Source: Salinigranum marinum (GTDB lineage: Archaea; Halobacteriota; Halobacteria; Halobacteriales; Haloferacaceae). From it: a DNA stretch of 64,000 nucleotides. Numbering within the stretch: position 1 is the first letter of the stretch; the number at the start of each line of letters is the position of its first letter. A program made the translations under genes and the position numbers. The notes below the pieces were generated by a model. That model was not told the DNA's origin. It saw nothing but the letters and a program-made list of their open reading frames with translations, and did no database searches. The stretch is taken from positions 3,779,398-3,843,397 of the forward strand of contig NZ_CP100461.1 of assembly GCF_024228675.1 (NCBI RefSeq), in the 5' to 3' direction. Positions 6,161 to 27,711 of the stretch are shown piece after piece.

Positions 6161-7369
6161 ATGAACAGGCGGTCGGTCCTCGGGGCTCTCGCGAGCTGCA
6201 CCCTCACCGGGGTCGTGGGCTGTCTCGGAGAGGTCGGGTTCGGTGCGGCAGAGTCAACACCGACCCCGGTCGTGAACCGCGAGGTGCCGCCCGGGGACGA
6301 CGGCGGCGAAACGATCCCGCAGTTCCAGGGCGCTCCCGAACACACGGGGCGGGTCGATGCAACCGGGCCGACTGACTCCGTCACGACGTTCTGGCGACGG
6401 ACTCCCTACCGGTACGACCACTCTCAGCCGGTCGTCGTCGGTGAGCGAGTGTACGTCTCGTTCACCGGCAACCTGATCCAGTTGGACCGTTCGACAGGCG
6501 AGCGTCGGTGGCTCACCGATGTCGGTCACGACGGTGCCTCGACGCCCGCGGTGTACGATGGGACAGTCTACGTCACGGTCTGGAACGGCGGGGCTGATGT
6601 CGACCGTGGGTTGGCAGCTCTCGATACTGAGAGTGGTGCGGTCGAGTGGCGCGGCGTGACAGACGCAGACGTAACTACCGCCCCGGCCGTGACTGTCGAC
6701 GGTGTGTTCGTCGGCGGTGGGCACGAGACGACAACTGTCGCAGCGTTCGCTCACGATGGTACCGAGCGCTGGCGTCACGACCTCGGCGAATACGCTTCGA
6801 CACCGGCGGTGGCCGACAGCACTGCCATCTACGGGGCGGGAACTGCTCGCGTCGTCGCCTACGACGCCGTCTCGGGCGAACGGCAGTGGCAGTTCGACAC
6901 CGATGGCGACGTGACAGCGGCGCCTACCGTCGCGGACGGCCGCGTCGTGGTCGGAACGCGGGCCGGTGCGCTGTACGCCCTCGATGTCGAGGATGGTTCC
7001 GAAGACTGGACGGTCGATCTTCCCGGTCCAGTTCGTCAGTCGGTCGCCGTGGCTGACGACCGAATCGTCGCCCCGACAGAGAGGGGGCTGGTGACGGTCG
7101 ATACCGGGGGCTCTGTACAGTGGACTGCCGACGCGGTTTCGGGAGCCACTGCACCGGTGATCGCCGGAGATGGCGTATACGTCGGCGACGAGCGGACGGT
7201 ACGGTCGCTGTCGCTGACCGATGGAACGGAGTGGTGGTCGTTCGAGACCCGAGAACGCACCTACACTGACGTCGTGCTCGGAGGTATTCGGGCCGCGCCG
7301 ACCGTCACGGATGGCATCGTCATCGTCGCCACCCAGGCCGGTGACGTGTACGCGTTAGGCGAGGCGTGA
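6161..7369 (+). CDS. secreted PQQ-like beta-propeller lipoprotein
   Basis: 402 residues. The N-terminus has Arg-Arg (MNRRSVLGAL) and a lipobox ending VVGC at Cys21, so it is likely a lipid-anchored extracellular protein. After an acidic Thr/Pro-rich linker come repeated beta-propeller blades with the pattern VYV-(x)n-LD/A-x-GxxxW (for example LIQLDRSTGERRW, LAALDTESGAVEW, LYALDVEDGSEDW). Such propellers in haloarchaea are usually structural or binding modules and need not bind PQQ. The start at 6161 was chosen because it begins the signal peptide. GC is slightly lower than in the neighbours. Exact role unknown. Confidence 0.82.
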   Translation: MNRRSVLGALASCTLTGVVGCLGEVGFGAAESTPTPVVNREVPPGDDGGETIPQFQGAPEHTGRVDATGPTDSVTTFWRRTPYRYDHSQPVVVGERVYVSFTGNLIQLDRSTGERRWLTDVGHDGASTPAVYDGTVYVTVWNGGADVDRGLAALDTESGAVEWRGVTDADVTTAPAVTVDGVFVGGGHETTTVAAFAHDGTERWRHDLGEYASTPAVADSTAIYGAGTARVVAYDAVSGERQWQFDTDGDVTAAPTVADGRVVVGTRAGALYALDVEDGSEDWTVDLPGPVRQSVAVADDRIVAPTERGLVTVDTGGSVQWTADAVSGATAPVIAGDGVYVGDERTVRSLSLTDGTEWWSFETRERTYTDVVLGGIRAAPTVTDGIVIVATQAGDVYALGEA

Positions 7370-7543
7370 GACCCGACGAATCGCGAGATCCAGGCGGCAG
7401 AAGCCGATCCCGTGCTGACGACGACTTCTGTATACCGCATCCCCTCTCACGATCCGGCCATCGTCCCGACAGAGCCGTCAGTACGCGGCTCAGCCGATCG
7501 ATCGGCCCCGCCCCGACGCTCCGACCCCGGACTCACTCGTATC

Positions 7544-9280
7544 CTACTGCCCTTCGTACAGCGACTCGATCCGAGCGCTGGTGTCGGCCGCCGTCGGATC
7601 GAGGTCCTCGCGCACGCCCAGGAACCGCGGGAACCGAAGCGCGAAGCCGGAGTCGTACTCGGTCGAGCGCTGGATCTCCTCGTACTCGACTTCGAGGACG
7701 ACCGCGGGTTCTACCTCGACCTGCCGGCCCGCCTCGCCCGTGACGTGGTGCTCCAAGCGCTCGGTCAGCGCCGCCAGTTCCTCGTCGGTGTACCCCGTCG
7801 ACAGCCGCCCCACCTCCCTGAACTCTCCGGTCTCGGGGTCGCGACAGCCGAGAAAGAGCCGTCCGAGCTGTTCGGCCCGGCGGCCCTCCGACCACTGCGC
7901 ACGCGTCACCACGAGGTCGAGTGGTTCCATCACCGGCTTGAGCTTCACCATCTGCCCGACCCGAACGCCCGGCTGGTACGGTGCCGTCCCGTTCTTCAGC
8001 ATGACTCCCTCGTGGCCGGCCGCGAGCACCTCGCGGTAGAACGACTCCGTCCGAGCGACCGGCTCGTCGGTCTCGTCCAGCCACGTGTTCCGGACGCGCT
8101 CGATCCGCCCCGCCGACGGCGTGAACGACGCCTCCAGCCGGGCGACTCGCTCGCGGAGCGGGCTGTCGAGCAACGAGTCGCCGTCGACGTGGAGCGCGTC
8201 GAACAGGTACAGCGTGGCGGGGATCTCGGCGGCCAGCCGCTCGACCTCGTACTCGCGCTTGATGCGCCGCGAGAACTCCTGGAACGGGACCAACTCGTCC
8301 GTCTCGCCGTCGAACCCGACAGCCTCCCCGTCCAGCACGGCTGTCGTCGCGGTGACCGCCTCGCGCACCGCGGCCTCGACCTCGGGGAACCCCGCGGTAA
8401 CGTCTCCGAGCCGACGGGTGTACAGCGTCACGTCGTCGCCGTCGACGTGGACCTGCAGCCGCATCCCGTCGAGCTTCGTCTCGACGAGCACCGCCGGGTG
8501 CGAGGCGACCGCGTCGATGCCGGCCGCCGCCGACTCGGCTTTCTCGGCCTTCATCGACTGGATCGGCCGGCCCACCTCGATGTCGAGCGCCGCGAGCCCG
8601 GCCAGTCCCTCGTCGCGTGCGGTCGTCGCCACGAGCGGGTAGTCGTTCGTCACCTGAAAGCCGCGCTCGACCGCCGCGGTGAGCTCCGCGGGCGGTTCGG
8701 TCCGGCGCTCGGGAGGGAGTTCCCACAGCGGTGTCCCGTCGGCTAAGAACGCGGCGGCGATGGCGTCACGGACCAGCCCGTCGCCGATCCCGAGCCGGAG
8801 GTGACCGACGGCGAGCCGGACGAGGTACCGGGCCTCCGCAGGGTCGGCGTCCGAGACGAGCCCGGCCAGTTCGTCGATCCGTCGGGTCTGCGAGCCCGCC
8901 CCCTGGAAGTCGGGGAACGCACGGAGCGTCGACAACAGCCGGTCGACGGTGAGCGGCTCGGAGAACAGGCGCTGTTGTGTCCGGTGGTCGACCGCCCACG
9001 CGGCGGCGTCGCCGAGGTCGCCCGTCTCGCCCCAGCGCTCCTCGATCGCCGCCTCATCGACGCCGGTCGCCTTCGCCACCGCCGCGCGCGCCGACCGCGA
9101 GGAGACCCCGAGGTCGGCGGGGTCCCACGAGGGGAACAGCTGTCCCTGGACGACCACGACCAGGTCGGCGAGTCGGCCGTCGGCACCGGCGAACCGCTCC
9201 GCTAAGACGGCCGTCTTGTCGAGCGTCGAGGCGGTCGCGTCGAGCGCGTCGAACGTCGCGACCAGCGTGGCGAACTCCAT
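7544..9280 (-). CDS. lig: ATP-dependent DNA ligase
   Basis: Seals nicks in duplex DNA during replication and repair through a ligase-AMP intermediate. 578 residues, close to other archaeal type-I ligases. An N-terminal alpha-helical DNA-binding domain (about 1-200) precedes the nucleotidyltransferase core: adenylated Lys269 in motif I (ETKLDGMRL), the YLFDALHVDGDSL region (motif III), EGVMLKN (motif IV) and QMVKLKPV (motif V), then the OB fold. The start MEFATLVATF matches where archaeal ligases begin. The reading frame is open upstream without any stop right through a histidine-kinase domain, so either this ATG is used independently or a kinase-ligase fusion is made; no clear ribosome-binding site is visible before the ATG. 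Confidence 0.93.
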   Translation of the reverse strand: MEFATLVATFDALDATASTLDKTAVLAERFAGADGRLADLVVVVQGQLFPSWDPADLGVSSRSARAAVAKATGVDEAAIEERWGETGDLGDAAAWAVDHRTQQRLFSEPLTVDRLLSTLRAFPDFQGAGSQTRRIDELAGLVSDADPAEARYLVRLAVGHLRLGIGDGLVRDAIAAAFLADGTPLWELPPERRTEPPAELTAAVERGFQVTNDYPLVATTARDEGLAGLAALDIEVGRPIQSMKAEKAESAAAGIDAVASHPAVLVETKLDGMRLQVHVDGDDVTLYTRRLGDVTAGFPEVEAAVREAVTATTAVLDGEAVGFDGETDELVPFQEFSRRIKREYEVERLAAEIPATLYLFDALHVDGDSLLDSPLRERVARLEASFTPSAGRIERVRNTWLDETDEPVARTESFYREVLAAGHEGVMLKNGTAPYQPGVRVGQMVKLKPVMEPLDLVVTRAQWSEGRRAEQLGRLFLGCRDPETGEFREVGRLSTGYTDEELAALTERLEHHVTGEAGRQVEVEPAVVLEVEYEEIQRSTEYDSGFALRFPRFLGVREDLDPTAADTSARIESLYEGQ

Positions 9281-17169: not shown

Positions 17170-17883
17170 TCAGTCGTTGAGTTGTGCCTTCTCGAACCGG
17201 CTCGCCGGCAGTCGGAGTTCGTCGAGCCCCGGCAGGTGCTTGACGTTGTAGACGACTTTCAGTTCGTCCGTCGTCGGGATCCCGATACACGACAGTTCGA
17301 TCCCGTTGTCGCGCATCTCCGACGAGAGGATGTGTCCGGCCGGCATCTCCACCTCGCCCTCCGTGACGGCGACCGCGCAGTTGGCGCACGCCCCGCCGCG
17401 GCAGGCGTACGGCCACGCGAAGCCGCAGTTCTCTGCGGCCTGCAGGATCGACTCGCGGCCCTGGACGAGAAAGCGGCCGCGGTCGGCGGGGTCGAGATCC
17501 GCGTCGGCCGCCTTCTCGAACAGGTCCTCGTCGTCGAGCGACCAGCCGTGGTCGGCGAGGACGTCGTAGTTCAGGTACTCGACCGTCACGCCCTCCGACC
17601 CCTCCTCGACCGGCTCGTCCCCGCCGGCGTCGTCGTCCTGGCCGTCGTCCGCGTCGACGCCGTCGTCGGGGGGGTCCGTGTCCTCCGCGTCGACCGCGGT
17701 CTCGAGTTCGGCGTCGCCGCGACCCGCCTTGATCTCCTCGTACGCCTGCTTGACGAGCTGGAACTCCCGCGCCGAGCCGCCCTGGTCCGGGTGGGTCTCG
17801 ATTACGCGGCGGCGATACGCCCGGCTCAGTTCCCGTTCGTCCGCGTCCGGGTCGACCTGTAGAATATCGAACGGAGACGCCAC
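17170..17883 (-). CDS. J-domain/[2Fe-2S] ferredoxin fusion protein
   Basis: 237 residues from a GTG start. The N-terminal 60 residues are a J-domain with the Hsp70-activating HPD at 31-33 (RRRVIETHPDQGG). A 40-residue Asp/Gly-rich linker follows, then a plant-type ferredoxin of haloarchaeal style with cluster ligands Cys161, Cys166, Cys169 (CRGGACANC) and Cys199 (LSCIG). The GTG at 17883 is chosen because it begins the J-domain and has AGATATAACG (17905-17914) at the TATA position. The ferredoxin half probably transfers electrons; why it carries a chaperone-partner domain is not known to me, perhaps for cluster loading by DnaK. Confidence 0.85.
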   Translation of the reverse strand: MASPFDILQVDPDADERELSRAYRRRVIETHPDQGGSAREFQLVKQAYEEIKAGRGDAELETAVDAEDTDPPDDGVDADDGQDDDAGGDEPVEEGSEGVTVEYLNYDVLADHGWSLDDEDLFEKAADADLDPADRGRFLVQGRESILQAAENCGFAWPYACRGGACANCAVAVTEGEVEMPAGHILSSEMRDNGIELSCIGIPTTDELKVVYNVKHLPGLDELRLPASRFEKAQLND

Positions 17884-17904
17884 GACTACCCCTAGCGAAA
17901 TCAG

Positions 17905-17914
17905 AGATATAACG
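17905..17914 (-). promoter_or_regulatory. TATA box of the J-domain/ferredoxin gene
   Basis: CGTTATATCT on the minus strand, 22-31 bp before the GTG at 17883; decides the GTG start and implies a leaderless transcript. Confidence 0.55.
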
Positions 17915-18036
17915 CTTCTCCCAGCGGGGGCCGCTGCCCCCGAACCGCCCCCGCGGTTCGGGTCGGCCAGCCCCGTCGAACACCCGCGCCGGCGGAAGCC
18001 TGAACACACAAGTACCCCCCGTCCCAACCCCCGCAC

Positions 18037-20928: not shown

Positions 20929-22884
20929 ATGGACGATAATGACAATAACAGTGTGTGCGAGAACGGACTGTCGCGCCGTCGGATGCTGGTGTCGACGGCG
21001 GTGCTCGGAACCGCCGGACTCGCCGGCTGTGGTGGTCAAAGCGGTGGTGGCGGGGGCGGTGACGGCGGCGACGGTGGCGGCGGCAGCGGTGGCGGCGGCG
21101 GCACCAGCAGCGGCGGCGGCCAGGGTCGAAGCGTCGAGACCATGTTCCGGGGCGAGTGGCCGATCGAGACGAAGAACAACGACAACATCCCCTTCGAGTA
21201 CACGGTGACCGAGGGGGCGGCCGTCCCGGAGATCACGGTCAACTTCGCCAGCGACGAGGAGCCGTGGATGCGCGAGCACGCGCTGATGATCCAGCGCGCG
21301 TTCACCGACGTCGGCGTCCCGGTCGCGCTCGACGACGTCCCGACGAACGTGATGTACGACGAGTACTGGGCCGCGGACACGGGCCACACGGTATCGGTGT
21401 CGATGAACACCCACGGCCCGGACCCCCAGCGCGGTCTCGACCCCAACCCGTTCCTGATGCGGATGCACCCGAAGACGGGCGGCAACTACTACAACTACAA
21501 CAACCCCGAGATCACGGAACTGCTCGACCAGCAGGCGACCGAGATCCAGGATCGAGAGCGCCGCGTCGAACTGTGCCACGAGATCCAGCGGAAGGCGAGC
21601 GAGGACGCGTACATCCAGTCGATCGCGTTCACCGACGTCATCATGGCGGGCAACACCGCCAACTGGGAGGGGTACGTCCCCATGCCCGGCAACGGGACGA
21701 ACCGCGACTCGTTCATCTGGACGCAGGTGAACCTCCAGCCGCAGGGCGATTCGAGCACGTGGGTCAAGGGCGTCCTCGCGTCGATGGGCGGGCTCAACAT
21801 CGCCTGGGCCGGCGGCGGCCCCGAGGCGAAGCGGCTCACCAACCTCTACGACGGGCTCTTCGACGCCTCGCCGAACCTCGAGATCGTCCCGGCGCTCGCG
21901 ACCAACGCCGAGGTCGTCGACGACACGACCGTCGATGTCGACCTCCGCGAGGGGGTCCAGTGGCACGACGGGGAGTCGTTCGGCCCGCAGGACGTGAAGT
22001 TCAGCGTCGAGCTGTTCAAGGAGTACAACTCCCCCGAGATGGGACCGTTCTACAGCCCGATCGACAGCGTCGAGGTCGTCTCGGAGAGCGGCGGCGGCGC
22101 GGTCCGGTTCAACCTCTCTCAGCCCGACGCGGCGTTCCTGACCCAGCGCATGGTCCGCAGCGTCATCCTCCCGCAACACAAGTGGGAGGACGTCGACAAC
22201 CCCGCACAGCACAGTCCCTCGAACCCGGTCGGGACGGGGCCGTTCCAGTTCTCCAGCTGGGAGCAGGGGACCCGCTTCGCCGTCGAGAAGAACCCCGGCC
22301 ACTGGATGTGGGACGAGGCGGTCCGCGAGGAGATCCTCGGCGACTACTTCACCCCTGGGGACGGCATCGACGGCATCGTCTGGGCCAACGTCGGCAACGT
22401 CGACGCGCTCATCGGTGCCATGCAGAGCGGCGACATCGACGCCATCGGGACGACGCTGTCGAACTCCCAGGCGGAACGCGCCGCTCAGACCAGCGGCGTC
22501 GAGAAGCAGGTGTCGCAGAACTACGCGCCGCTCGACGTCCACATCAACCACATCAACCCCCTCATCCGTGACAAGGAGTTCCGCAAGGCGCTCAGCCACT
22601 CGGTCGACAAGACGGGGTTCGTCGAGGGCGTCCTCGGCGGCCGCGGGACGGTCATCGAGGGACAGAACCTCATCTCGCCGATGATGAGTCCGTTCTACAC
22701 CGGCGACATCCCGACGTACGAGTACGACCCCGAAATGGCCGTGCAACGGCTCGAACAGGCGGGGTACACCTTCGACGGCGACACGCTCGTGGCCCCCTCG
22801 GGCGATGCCTGGGACGCGTTCGCTGCACGGGTCGAAGACGGGCACGCCGATCGGTCCGACCTGGACCAGCCCGACTTCTCCTGA
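20929..22884 (+). CDS. peptide-type ABC solute-binding lipoprotein, circularly permuted
   Basis: Extracellular binding protein of a DppA/OppA-type importer, 651 residues. A Tat signal (SRRRMLV, residues 15-21) and lipobox LAGC (Cys34) are followed by a Gly/Ser linker (35-66). The mature part is a SBP_bac_5 protein in the wrong order. Residues about 96-254 correspond to the usual C-terminal piece (DPNPF, NYYNYNNPEITELLDQQ, VELCHEIQRKASEDAYIQS, GYVPMP). Residues about 280-625 then give the usual N-terminal and middle parts (LYDGLFDASPNLEIVPALA, LREGVQWHDGE, NPVGTGPFQFSSW, FRKALSHSVDK), and the protein stops at the canonical midpoint (YDPEMAVQRLEQAGY). Ligand unknown; peptides or other organic solutes are possible. 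Confidence 0.9.
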   Translation: MDDNDNNSVCENGLSRRRMLVSTAVLGTAGLAGCGGQSGGGGGGDGGDGGGGSGGGGGTSSGGGQGRSVETMFRGEWPIETKNNDNIPFEYTVTEGAAVPEITVNFASDEEPWMREHALMIQRAFTDVGVPVALDDVPTNVMYDEYWAADTGHTVSVSMNTHGPDPQRGLDPNPFLMRMHPKTGGNYYNYNNPEITELLDQQATEIQDRERRVELCHEIQRKASEDAYIQSIAFTDVIMAGNTANWEGYVPMPGNGTNRDSFIWTQVNLQPQGDSSTWVKGVLASMGGLNIAWAGGGPEAKRLTNLYDGLFDASPNLEIVPALATNAEVVDDTTVDVDLREGVQWHDGESFGPQDVKFSVELFKEYNSPEMGPFYSPIDSVEVVSESGGGAVRFNLSQPDAAFLTQRMVRSVILPQHKWEDVDNPAQHSPSNPVGTGPFQFSSWEQGTRFAVEKNPGHWMWDEAVREEILGDYFTPGDGIDGIVWANVGNVDALIGAMQSGDIDAIGTTLSNSQAERAAQTSGVEKQVSQNYAPLDVHINHINPLIRDKEFRKALSHSVDKTGFVEGVLGGRGTVIEGQNLISPMMSPFYTGDIPTYEYDPEMAVQRLEQAGYTFDGDTLVAPSGDAWDAFAARVEDGHADRSDLDQPDFS

Positions 22885-22909: not shown

Positions 22910-23893
22910 ATGAGTTTCAGACGATTTCTCGTCAAACGAATTGCGATCTCGATAGTCCTGACGCTCGTCTCCGTCTCGATCATCTTCCTCGCGCTCCGAC
23001 TGCTCCCGGGCGATCCGTTCAGCTCGCTCATCGCCTCCGGAGGGCTCACACAGGAGCAAGTCCAGGCGTTGCGCGTCCAGTATGGCCTCGACGAGCCGAT
23101 ATACGTCCAGTACCTCAAGTACGTCCAGAGCCTGATGACGCTGAACTTCGGGTTCTCGATCGCCCAGAGCCGCCCGGTGAGCGCCATCGTCTTCCCGCGG
23201 CTGCTCAACACGATGATCCTGCTCGTGCCCGCGCTGGTCGTGACCGCCATCGTCAGCTCGGCGCTCGGCTCGTACGCCGGCTGGAACCGTGGCTCGAAGT
23301 TCGAGCAGCTGAGCATCGTCGTGACGACGTTCTTCCGCTCGACGCCGGTGTTCGTCACGGGCATCTTCTTCCTCATCATCTTCTCCTACCAGCTCGACCT
23401 GCTGCCCGCGTTCGGGATGCGGAGCCCGACGGCGGCCCCGGAGGGGTTCGTCGAGACGTACCTCTCGCCGGACTTCGCGATGCACTACTTCCTGCCGTTC
23501 CTCGCGACGGTGCTGTACTACAGCGGCGACTTCCTGATGCTCGCGCGCAACTCGGTCGTCGAGCGCAAGGGGTCGGCGTTTCTCACGCTCCACCGTGCGA
23601 AAGGGCTCTCCGAGATGGAACAGCTCGCCCGCGCCGGGCGAAACTCGATGCTTCCCTTGCTCACGTACTTCGCGCTCCGGCTCGGGATGATGTTCCAGGG
23701 CGTCATCACCCTCGAAGTCGTCTTCGCGTGGCCGGGGATCGGGCGCGCGCTCGTCCAGGCGATCAACCAGCAGGACTACCCGACCGTCCAGGCGGCGATC
23801 TTCATCATGGCCTTTGCCGTCATCGTAATGAACCTCCTCGCGGACGTGATGTACGCGAAGGTCGACCCGACGGTCGAAGGGGGTGACGTCTGA
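22910..23893 (+). CDS. DppB-type ABC permease
   Basis: 327 residues, about six membrane helices. An N-terminal helix (RIAISIVLTLVSVSIIFLAL) is followed by the family's LLPGDPF motif, and the cytoplasmic EAA-type coupling loop reads RAKGLSEMEQLARAGRNSMLP near residue 220. It forms the membrane channel with the next gene product. The ATG at 22910 is 25 bp after the binding-protein stop. The stop overlaps the next start (TGATG). Confidence 0.92.
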   Translation: MSFRRFLVKRIAISIVLTLVSVSIIFLALRLLPGDPFSSLIASGGLTQEQVQALRVQYGLDEPIYVQYLKYVQSLMTLNFGFSIAQSRPVSAIVFPRLLNTMILLVPALVVTAIVSSALGSYAGWNRGSKFEQLSIVVTTFFRSTPVFVTGIFFLIIFSYQLDLLPAFGMRSPTAAPEGFVETYLSPDFAMHYFLPFLATVLYYSGDFLMLARNSVVERKGSAFLTLHRAKGLSEMEQLARAGRNSMLPLLTYFALRLGMMFQGVITLEVVFAWPGIGRALVQAINQQDYPTVQAAIFIMAFAVIVMNLLADVMYAKVDPTVEGGDV

Positions 23894-24816
23894 TGCTCTC
23901 GGTCGCCACGCTCGACGCCGAGGAGCTACGAGAGCGCGCCTCGGAGAACCTCACGCGCGCCAGGAACGTCATGGCGGTCGTGTTGCAGGACGACGCCGCC
24001 AAGGTCGGCGTCGTCGTGCTCGTCGCGTTCGTCTTCTTAGGGCTGTTCGGACCGATGCTGGCCCCGTACGAGCCGATCGAGGACACGCTCCGGGCGAACG
24101 ACGGCGGCATCATGCGGATGTCCCCGCCCAGCAGCGCGGCCCCGCTCGGGACCACGACGTTCGGGAAGGACGTGCTGAGCCAGTTCCTCGCCGGCGCACG
24201 GCCGACGTTCATCGTCGGCTTCTTCGGCGGCATCGGAACCGGCGTCGTCGGCTTCCTCGTCGGGCTCACGAGCGGCTACTTCGGCGGGCGGGTCGACGAA
24301 CTGCTGATGCGCCTGACGGACCTGACGTTCGCCCTGCCGTTCCTGCCGATGGCGCTGCTCGTGCTGACGTTCGTCCAGCCGACAATCGTCCTCATCACCG
24401 CGGTGATCGTGGCGTTCTTCTGGAAGATGCCCGCTCGCGTCATCCGGTCGGAGGTGATGACCGTCCGCGAGCGCACGTTCGTGAAGTCGGCTCGCGCCGC
24501 CGGCGCGGGTCACGGGCGGACGATGTTCTTACACGTCGCGCCGAACGTCATCGGCGTCGGCTTCCTCTACACCGCCTACGCCGTCTCCTGGGCCATCGCG
24601 GGCCAGGCGTCGCTCGCCTTCCTCGGCTTCGGCGATCCGACGGCCACCTCGTGGGGCCGGATGCTCCAGCAGGTGTTCGAGTCCGGCGGGATGCGCGAGG
24701 CGTGGTGGTGGGTGCTCCCACCGGCGGTCGGTATCGCGGCGGTGACTACCTCGGTGTTCCTCGTCGGACGCGCGTTCGAAGAGGTCGTGAACCCCGAACT
24801 ACGGAGCGAAGAATGA
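23893..24816 (+). CDS. DppC-type ABC permease
   Basis: Partner permease, 307 residues. After an amphipathic N-terminus comes the first helix (VGVVVLVAFVFLGLFGPMLAPYEP), then the GTTTFGKDVLSQFLAGARPTF periplasmic/coupling segment typical of DppC, and the EAA loop KSARAAGAGHGRTMFLHVAPN. Overlaps by 1 bp with the gene before and by 4 bp (ATGA) with the ATPase gene behind, so translational coupling throughout. Confidence 0.92.
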   Translation: MLSVATLDAEELRERASENLTRARNVMAVVLQDDAAKVGVVVLVAFVFLGLFGPMLAPYEPIEDTLRANDGGIMRMSPPSSAAPLGTTTFGKDVLSQFLAGARPTFIVGFFGGIGTGVVGFLVGLTSGYFGGRVDELLMRLTDLTFALPFLPMALLVLTFVQPTIVLITAVIVAFFWKMPARVIRSEVMTVRERTFVKSARAAGAGHGRTMFLHVAPNVIGVGFLYTAYAVSWAIAGQASLAFLGFGDPTATSWGRMLQQVFESGGMREAWWWVLPPAVGIAAVTTSVFLVGRAFEEVVNPELRSEE

Positions 24817-26864
24817 GTCTACTCGAAGTCGAAGACCTCCGAATCAGGTATCGTACGTCCGAGGACGACGTTCACGCGGTCAACGGCGTCTCGTTCTCGG
24901 TCGACGCCGGCGACAACTACGGGCTCGTCGGCGAGTCCGGCTGTGGTAAATCCACCATCGCCCACTCGATCCTCGGGCTCCTCGACGACAACGCGCGGAT
25001 CGACTCCGGAACGGTCACCTTCGACGGCCAGGACCTGCTCGACCTCTCCGAGCGGGAGTGGCGGGACGTGCGCTGGCAGCAGATCTCGTACATCCCACAG
25101 AGCGCGATGGACTCGCTCGACCCCGTGATGAGCGTCGGCGCGCAGATCACACAGGCCATCCGGAAACACCGCGACGTCTCGAAGGCCACCGCACGCGAGC
25201 GCGTCGCCGAGGTGTTCGACATCGTCGGGCTGGACCCCGACCGCATTAGCGACTACCCCCACCAGTTCTCCGGGGGGATGCGCCAGCGCGTCACGATCGC
25301 GATGGCGCTCGCGCTCGATCCGGACCTCATCATCGCCGACGAACCCACGACCGGGCTGGACGTCATCGTCCAGGACAAGATCATCCACAAGCTGATGGAG
25401 ATCCAAGCGGAGATCGACAGCTCGCTCCTGTTGATCACCCACGACATCGGCGTCGTCTCCGAGACCTGCGACGACATCTCCGTCCTCTACGGCGGGAAGG
25501 TGATGGAGCAGGGGGCGACCCGACACGTGCTCAAGCACCCAACCAACCCGTACACGATGGGGCTGAAGAACTCCTTCCCGGACATCGAGGACTTCGACCG
25601 ACAGGCCGTCTCGATCCCGGGTTCGCTGCCCGATCTTACGGAGGAGCCGACGGGCTGTGTGTTCCGGAACCGCTGTCCGTTCGCCACCGAGGCGTGCGAG
25701 AACGGCCACCCGGAGTTGGAGACGGTCGAGAACCAGCGGTCGGCCTGCTACCACACCGACCGCGTCGAACAGCTCCGCGAGGAGGCGACCGACCCGGGGA
25801 CCTGGGGGCTCGACCTCGCCGACCGCACGGGCGACCGCGAGCACGGCGAGACGGTGCTCAGCACCGACGACCTCTCGAAGTGGTTCACGCAGACCCAGGG
25901 GATGCTCGACCAGTTGCTGGGGAACGAGCCGAACTACGTCAAGGCGGTCAACGAGGTCGACCTCGACGTGCGCGAGAGCGAGATCGTCGGCATCGCCGGC
26001 GAGTCCGGCTGTGGGAAGTCGACGCTCGGCGAGGTCATCTCGGTGCTCCAGCCGCGGACCGACGGCGGTATCACGTTCCGCGGCAAGTCGGTCGACGACT
26101 ACCTCGCCGACGGGCCCAAGGAGTTCCGCTCGAAGGTACAGTTCATTTTCCAGGACCCCTTCGACTCGCTGAACCCCCGACAGACGGTCCGCGCGGCGGT
26201 GGCCGAACCGCTGAAGATCCAGGGCCGCCAGCGCGGCGGCATCGAGGGGACGGTCAGAGAGACGCTCTCAGACGTCGGCCTCAACCCGCCCGAGAAGTAC
26301 CTCGACAGCTACCCCCACCAGCTGTCGGGCGGCGAGCGCCAGCGCGTCGCCATCGCGCGGGCGCTCGTCCTCGATCCCGAACTGCTCATCTGCGACGAGC
26401 CGGCGTCGATGCTCGACGTCTCGCTGAAGGCCAGCATCCTCAACATCCTCCGCCAGATGGCCGACGAGCGCGACATCGGGATCGTCTACATCTCCCACGA
26501 TCTGGCAAGCCTCTCGCAGATCACGGACCGCCTCGCCGTGATGTATCTGGGCCGGATCGTCGAGGTCGGGGAGACGCGCGAGATCGTCCAGGACCCGAAA
26601 CACCCCTACGCCGCGTCGCTCCTGTCGGCCTCGCCGAACGCCGACCCGACCGAAAAACGAAAACGGGTGTTGCTCCCGGGCGAGCCGCCGAACCCAGTCA
26701 ACCTCCCCGACGGCTGTAACTTCGCCCCGCGCTGCCCGAAGGCGACCGAAGAGTGCCGCACCACGGAACCAGAGCGGGCGACGTTCAGCGACGGCGACCA
26801 CGAGGCCGCCTGCTACCACCCCGTCGAGCGCATCGAACGAGAGCTGCTGGCGGAGTACGAGTGA
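24813..26864 (+). CDS. fused DppD-DppF double ABC ATPase
   Basis: 683 residues combining both ATPases of a dipeptide-type importer in one chain. Domain 1: Walker A GESGCGKST (40-48), signature FSGGMRQ (about 152-158), Walker B LIIADEP; its tail has Cys282, Cys288, Cys295 and Cys312, the positions that in DppD/OppD proteins can bind an iron-sulphur cluster. Domain 2: Walker A GESGCGKST (396-404), signature LSGGERQ, Walker B LLICDEP, and a second cysteine tail (CNFAPRCPKATEEC). Separate D and F genes are commoner. It follows the permease with a 4-bp overlap. Confidence 0.92.
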   Translation: MSLLEVEDLRIRYRTSEDDVHAVNGVSFSVDAGDNYGLVGESGCGKSTIAHSILGLLDDNARIDSGTVTFDGQDLLDLSEREWRDVRWQQISYIPQSAMDSLDPVMSVGAQITQAIRKHRDVSKATARERVAEVFDIVGLDPDRISDYPHQFSGGMRQRVTIAMALALDPDLIIADEPTTGLDVIVQDKIIHKLMEIQAEIDSSLLLITHDIGVVSETCDDISVLYGGKVMEQGATRHVLKHPTNPYTMGLKNSFPDIEDFDRQAVSIPGSLPDLTEEPTGCVFRNRCPFATEACENGHPELETVENQRSACYHTDRVEQLREEATDPGTWGLDLADRTGDREHGETVLSTDDLSKWFTQTQGMLDQLLGNEPNYVKAVNEVDLDVRESEIVGIAGESGCGKSTLGEVISVLQPRTDGGITFRGKSVDDYLADGPKEFRSKVQFIFQDPFDSLNPRQTVRAAVAEPLKIQGRQRGGIEGTVRETLSDVGLNPPEKYLDSYPHQLSGGERQRVAIARALVLDPELLICDEPASMLDVSLKASILNILRQMADERDIGIVYISHDLASLSQITDRLAVMYLGRIVEVGETREIVQDPKHPYAASLLSASPNADPTEKRKRVLLPGEPPNPVNLPDGCNFAPRCPKATEECRTTEPERATFSDGDHEAACYHPVERIERELLAEYE

Positions 26865-26865
26865 C

Positions 26866-27711
26866 GTGAGTCGCTCGACTCGCCCCCGCCGGTCGGCCCT
26901 GTTCACACCCGCCGACGACGCCGAGATGCTCCACAAGGCCGTGGGGACCGACGCCGACGCGTTCATCTTCGACCTGGAGGACGCGGTCCACCCCTCGATG
27001 AAGGAGACGGCCCGCGCGAACGTCCGCGAGGTCGTCCCGGAGCTCGACGTGGCCCGGGAGGTGGCAGTGCGGATCAACGCGCCCAGCACCGACTGGTTCG
27101 CGCGCGACGTGGCCACCGCCGTCGACGCCGGGGCGGACGCCGTGGCGCTTCCGATGGTCGAGTCGGGCCGCGACGTCCGCGAGACGTGGGCGACGCTTAC
27201 GGCGTTGACCGACGATCCGCCCCTGCTCCGGGCGACGATCGAGACGCCGACCGGCATGCACGCGGGTAGGGAGATCGCCGCCGCCTGTCGCGAGACCGGG
27301 GTCGAGAGTCTCGCGTTCGGCTTCGCGGACTACTGCAAGGCGATCGGCTCGCCGGGCACGCCCGACCGGGTTCGTGAGCGACTCGAACTGCTGACCGTCG
27401 AGTACGCCGCCATGGGCGGTGTCGACCCCGTCGCCTCCGTCCACCTCGACATCGGCGACGACGCGGGGCTCGAACGGGTCGCCGACCGCGCCAGCGAGAC
27501 GGGGTTCGTCGGGATGACGGCGATCCACCCCGGCCAGCTCGACGTGATCAACGAGGCGTTCACCCCGGACGAGGATGCGGTCGCGCAGGCGCGACGGCTG
27601 GTCAGTGCGTTCGACGACTCCGAGCGGGACGCACTCGAAGTCGAGGGCGTCTTCCTCGACACGGCGACCGTCGACCGCTACCGCCGACTGCTCGACCGCG
27701 TCCCGGAGTAA
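26866..27711 (+). CDS. HpcH/HpaI-CitE family lyase (malyl-CoA lyase-like)
   Basis: 281 residues from a GTG start only 1 bp after the ATPase stop, so part of the transporter operon. TIM-barrel family members cleave or form malyl-CoA, beta-methylmalyl-CoA or citramalyl-CoA with Mg. Seen here: RRSALFTPADD at the N-terminus, FIFDLEDAVHPSMKE with the metal-binding region, RINAPST with the CoA-site Arg, ATIETPTGMHAGREI, FGFADYCKAIG, and GMTAIHPGQLDVIN. Exact acyl-CoA is not decidable. The operon context suggests catabolism of an imported organic acid or peptide-derived carbon, which is inference. Confidence 0.85.
   Translation: MSRSTRPRRSALFTPADDAEMLHKAVGTDADAFIFDLEDAVHPSMKETARANVREVVPELDVAREVAVRINAPSTDWFARDVATAVDAGADAVALPMVESGRDVRETWATLTALTDDPPLLRATIETPTGMHAGREIAAACRETGVESLAFGFADYCKAIGSPGTPDRVRERLELLTVEYAAMGGVDPVASVHLDIGDDAGLERVADRASETGFVGMTAIHPGQLDVINEAFTPDEDAVAQARRLVSAFDDSERDALEVEGVFLDTATVDRYRRLLDRVPE

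Follow-up and report, generated by a model that had tools for sequence, protein, structure and literature searches.

The question raised by this locus is whether the substrate-binding protein (SBP) of a peptide-type ABC importer operon in Salinigranum marinum carries the two parts of its fold in exchanged order, as a circular permutation would give. The gene lies in a 64,000-nucleotide stretch of DNA, referred to here as the window (contig NZ_CP100461.1, positions 3,779,398 to 3,843,397 of the forward strand), and coordinates in the window are counted from its first letter. The parts of the gene are:

20929-22884, plus strand: SBP open reading frame, 651 amino acids, with ATG at 20929 and the stop codon at 22882-22884.
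20929-21030, plus strand: Tat signal and lipobox, residues 1-34, read from the sequence.
21031-21126, plus strand: Gly/Ser-rich linker, residues 35-66, read from the sequence.
21229-21702, plus strand: canonical C-terminal segment, placed first, residues 101-258, equivalent to profile positions 390-541 (profile and PDB matches).
21703-21777, plus strand: new joint between the old C-terminus and the old N-terminus, residues 259-283 (profile).
21778-22803, plus strand: canonical N-terminal and middle segment, placed second, residues 284-625, equivalent to profile positions 64-386 (canonical-only profile).
22804-22881, plus strand: C-terminal tail, residues 626-651, ending AARVEDGHADRSDLDQPDFS, just past the cut (alignment A1).

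The protein is encoded by a single open frame from end to end. The original prediction had described a normal Tat-lipoprotein signal followed by a Gly/Ser linker, and both are present: the motifs SRRRML and LAGC are those expected of a Tat signal and a lipobox in haloarchaeal lipoproteins, with Cys34 likely to be lipid-anchored. The orthologue from Halorussus salinisoli (L012, 5974-7878) has a Tat motif and lacks the lipobox cysteine (GLTGISTGAA), so that protein is probably not lipid-anchored. At the other end of the chain, alignment A1 showed the tail of the window SBP (DAWDAFAARVEDGHADRSDLDQPDFS) to be strongly conserved in close orthologues only and to be missing from more distant permutants.

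To establish the order of the segments, the protein was compared with the Pfam collection, with sequences in the PDB and with a tailored profile. SBP_bac_5 (PF00496) was the only Pfam family to match, at 180 bits (cut-off 32.4), and its main match placed residues 318-618 on profile positions 1-283. When the front fragment was scanned alone, residues 94-171 gave a weak match to PF00496 positions 287-358 (E 0.019) that fell short of the gathering score. A phmmer search against the PDB aligned residues 306-645 with AppA 52-376 and residues 181-253 with AppA 436-506, and residues 95-256 with OppA 364-515. The genome holds six SBP_bac_5 genes, four of which match nearly the whole profile collinearly and a fifth of which matches positions 13-328; the SBP gene of the window is alone in having a match that ends at 283.

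The tailored profile was built from 31 canonical relatives and zero permuted sequences, which guards against circularity. Residues 101-258 of the window SBP matched its positions 390-541 at 54 bits (E 1e-14), and the match of residues 284-625 to its positions 64-386 reached 232 bits (E 9e-69), so that both parts of the fold are covered, without overlap and in reversed order. The reversed window protein and 50 shuffles gave zero matches to this profile, and canonical control proteins, from the same genome and from elsewhere, gave one collinear match apiece. The boundaries proposed beforehand, 96-254 and 280-625, differ from these by a few residues, and a single linear alignment of the whole protein to the family profile, which would have contradicted the proposed exchange, was absent. 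Because the parts are not collinear with the profile, the protein is a permuted variant and not a canonical SBP_bac_5 member. AlphaFold models made on shallow alignments of 4 and 6 sequences reached a mean pLDDT of only 34 and 41, and the fold is for this reason inferred from sequence. On the evidence of these profile and structure-database matches, the window chain is very probably a true circular permutation of the SBP_bac_5 fold, acting outside the cell as the lipid-anchored receptor of a peptide/nickel-type (Dpp/Opp) importer.

The genes that follow the SBP were predicted to form a normal and intact operon, and the order SBP-permease-permease-ATPase was found:

22910-23893, plus strand: permease 1, DppB/OppB type, BPD_transp_1 (Pfam, synteny).
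23893-24816, plus strand: permease 2, DppC/OppC type, OppC_N and BPD_transp_1 (Pfam, synteny).
24812-26864, plus strand: fused double ATPase, two ABC_tran and oligo_HPY (ORF, Pfam, synteny); the mechanical ORF opens upstream at 23883, and the real start is near 24812.
26866-27711, plus strand: HpcH/HpaI aldolase / CoA ester lyase, CitE-like (Pfam, synteny).
27776 to about 29900, minus strand: ADP-forming acyl-CoA synthetase (conserved neighbour).

This arrangement is conserved in relatives. Both permeases adjoin the SBP in all 18 close relatives compared, and the permease-permease-ATPase order is kept in 17 of the 18. Given importer genes conserved beside it, the window SBP is very likely to be a working importer receptor. 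In the seven closest relatives both the CoA ester lyase and the acyl-CoA synthetase are found beside the importer genes, and the synthetase is so placed in four more; these neighbours hint at an organic acid, or a precursor of one, as the substrate. In the Ketogulonicigenium and Roseomonas plasmids described below (L117 and L118), the permuted-SBP operons adjoin hydantoinase/oxoprolinase and M20/M28 peptidase genes, which may be a further hint at substrate. Elsewhere in the window, a single protein (17173-18036, minus strand) combines DnaJ and 2Fe-2S ferredoxin (Fer2) domains, and RNA families were not found in the neighbourhood of the SBP.

The exchanged order was then followed through other genomes. 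A search for haloarchaeal homologues with this order, as suggested with the original prediction, covered 170 genomes of the same family; 35 of them, counting that of the window itself, encode full-length relatives sharing 47-91% identity. Scanning named genomes added three (Halomarina, Halorussus and Halolamina), with possible species overlap with the 35. A second tier of relatives, at 24-30% identity in alignment A1, also has the exchanged order, and all 27 members of that alignment match SBP_bac_5. Remoter permutants were also seen among other haloarchaea. Relative to the nearest orthologues, dN/dS was 0.07-0.2 in either half; purifying selection acts on both halves. Where permuted relatives carry an annotation, it reads 'ABC transporter substrate-binding protein'. 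Relatives were absent from the viral contigs scanned.

Beyond the Archaea, single-piece permuted matches were found in complete alphaproteobacterial plasmids of Nitratireductor, Microvirga, Ketogulonicigenium, Roseomonas, Neorhizobium and Maritalea. The order of the segments was confirmed for the proteins from Nitratireductor, Microvirga, Ketogulonicigenium, Roseomonas and Maritalea, and Salipiger joined the set later. A profile spanning the junction added permuted proteins from the phyla Bacillota and Chloroflexota, the phylum in each case being that of the centre genome (Planomicrobium and Dehalococcoidia, respectively). Within single genomes, permuted proteins scored about 260-280 bits along the full length of the junction profile, whereas canonical proteins matched mainly its second half, at less than 80 bits. 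One candidate from Planomicrobium (L014), with coverage of 101-614 in the genome scan, turned out to be canonical once its segments had been mapped. What could have been a one-off is instead a large permuted group in Archaea and Bacteria, in which the order has seemingly arisen more than once and at two cut sites.

Classification of 174 ORFs, some from overlapping loci, gave 122 with a cut at about profile position 387/390 (cut A, as in the window), 40 canonical and 12 with a cut at position 244/245 (cut B), right behind a conserved N-P-x-Y-W. Cut B was seen in the Bacillota-phylum sample only (L157 and L159-L169); in these proteins profile positions 245-541 are followed by 54-244, most clearly in L161 and L164, and importer genes adjoin the SBP in the loci examined. 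Across the permuted proteins the two segments abut at the cut without overlap, with a median gap of 10 profile positions, and the joint between them has a median length of about 20 residues. A Bacillota-phylum locus, L200, holds two adjoining importer operons with SBP ORFs at 34-1440 and 6990-8699; the second has cut B, and the first matched profile positions 245-536 only, being incomplete either within the stretch or by itself.

To count the origins of the exchanged order, sequences were rotated to canonical order and a tree of 106 rows was built by a quick search with SH-aLRT support. The window SBP falls in a 56-member cut-A clade of haloarchaeal and bacterial proteins (support 92). L095 (1730-3472, minus strand), a permutant that lacks a lipobox and has a membrane helix at its C-terminus, comes from the same phylum as the window and a different order, and it pairs with the canonical protein L126 of its own genome, G345 (98). 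Three Bacillota-phylum permutants, L158, L171 and L176, fall among canonical proteins (96), and the cut B rows form one clade (100). These separate-origin and cut-B permutants also adjoin permeases, mostly with ATPases too, and the bacterial permutants likewise have importer genes for neighbours; in the Chloroflexota-phylum locus L204, importer genes were not found within its stretch. The tree makes it likely that natural permutation of cluster C binding proteins occurred at least four times: three events in the domain III loop (the window clade, the L095 lineage and the L158/L171/L176 group) and one after N-P-x-Y-W (L157 and L159-L169). How many events there were can be given only provisionally, since the count comes from a quick tree search with SH-aLRT support only; the floor is two events, because cuts A and B differ.

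A single origin for all cut-A permutants, with the apparent separate origins explained by tree error or by reversions, would be favored by the moderate support of several key branches, including the 92 of the main clade, and by the tendency of a quick search to misplace long branches. This explanation is rather unlikely: with the tree thinned to 69 rows, a single clade of all cut-A proteins was rejected by the AU test (p 5.7e-5), and a single origin would also have to account for L095 beside the canonical protein of its own genome and for the L158 group among canonical proteins. The type B cut, being different, is a separate event whatever the origin of cut A. Under the reading of at least four events, the loop in domain III would be a hot spot at which permutation occurs naturally, and permuted receptors would work in importers of two domains of life.

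The position of cut A suggests how the permuted chain may be built. The cut falls at about residue 357 of Salmonella OppA, a residue that by the published domain boundaries lies inside domain III. The canonical chain would have been opened in the loop that links the helix with AGY at its end to the next beta strand, and the old ends would be connected through a short linker; as both old termini lie in domain I, a short joint is enough. Because the cut is made inside a single lobe, the chain should cross between the lobes as often as before and the 'Venus flytrap' closing should persist; binding and transport would be retained as well. The N-terminal lipid anchor would be relocated from the first lobe to domain III, in the second. 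Tandem duplication of the gene followed by loss of the outer parts may have been the route by which the order arose.

Such a moved tether could itself be the adaptive reason for the permutation, as was proposed for TpMglB-2, a binding protein of Treponema pallidum. The lipobox of the window SBP and of most of its haloarchaeal relatives fits this idea, and the pattern occurs in 45 of 60 thinned cut-A rows. However, a lipobox is about equally common in canonical rows (25 of 38), it is found in none of six alphaproteobacterial permutants and none of eight type B rows, and L095 has its C-terminal membrane helix in place of one. As a general reason, a tether-driven cause is not supported, and we regard it as an improbable driver of the rearrangement.

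The same chain order could also have been produced by domain shuffling, if halves of two different binding-protein genes had been fused rather than one gene permuted. The authors of the TpMglB-2 study considered this likewise for their protein (PMC4990184), and among the SBP_bac_5 proteins the tree of the C-terminal half alone is poorly resolved and fails to confirm the grouping of the N-terminal half, the tree of which leaves the event count unchanged. Against fusion, at either type of cut the two segments cover the canonical fold with no overlap. Both half trees also agree in giving L126 as the nearest row to L095 by path, and in each of them the L158 group stays together, as does the type B group. 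We therefore consider fusion quite improbable and retain permutation of a single gene. An assembly or gene-model artefact, in which neighboring SBP genes were collapsed or fused, has a negligible chance of being correct, since one open frame runs throughout the window SBP and the order recurs at 47-91% identity in many independent genomes, complete replicons included; the collapse of two neighboring genes is excluded by the recurrence of the order in some 35 independent orthologues and in many relatives at greater distance.

Compared with known systems, the window SBP has in common with AppA, OppA, DppA and NikA (cluster C, PF00496) its family by profile, its type of operon and both parts of the fold; it differs from them in the exchange of those parts and in having its new N-terminus within domain III. 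A solved chain in the exchanged order was not found among the best PDB matches, where the first half of the fold comes first. Canonical haloarchaeal SBPs, such as L002-L004 of the same genome, are also Tat lipoproteins with the SBP_bac_5 fold, but they are collinear with the profile. The closest precedent is TpMglB-2 (Tp0684) of 'cluster Bc', a widespread and conserved natural circular permutant that retains glucose binding and conformational change (PMC4990184). Like the window SBP, it is a naturally permuted binding protein of an ABC importer. It differs in its cut site and in its cluster B sugar-binding fold; membership of cluster B (type I sugar-binding) was not found for the window SBP, SBP_bac_5 being its sole Pfam match. 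The permutation in TpMglB-2 adds a fourth hinge crossing, whereas the crossings of the window SBP should stay unchanged. The original prediction knew of no published natural example in the SBP_bac_5 family, and the open-licence full-text literature likewise yielded none. On that search the permuted SBP_bac_5 appears to be new, while natural permutation of binding proteins was already known from TpMglB-2.

In the literature searched, permutation of binding proteins is mainly a matter of engineered sensors; the one natural case with a solved structure belongs to another cluster. Rearranged folds such as those described here are concealed when proteins are annotated from one family match. A large natural family in which one loop has apparently been hit repeatedly offers ready-made pairs of canonical and permuted receptors, with which the effects of chain order, anchor position and hinges on ligand capture and permease docking can be probed.
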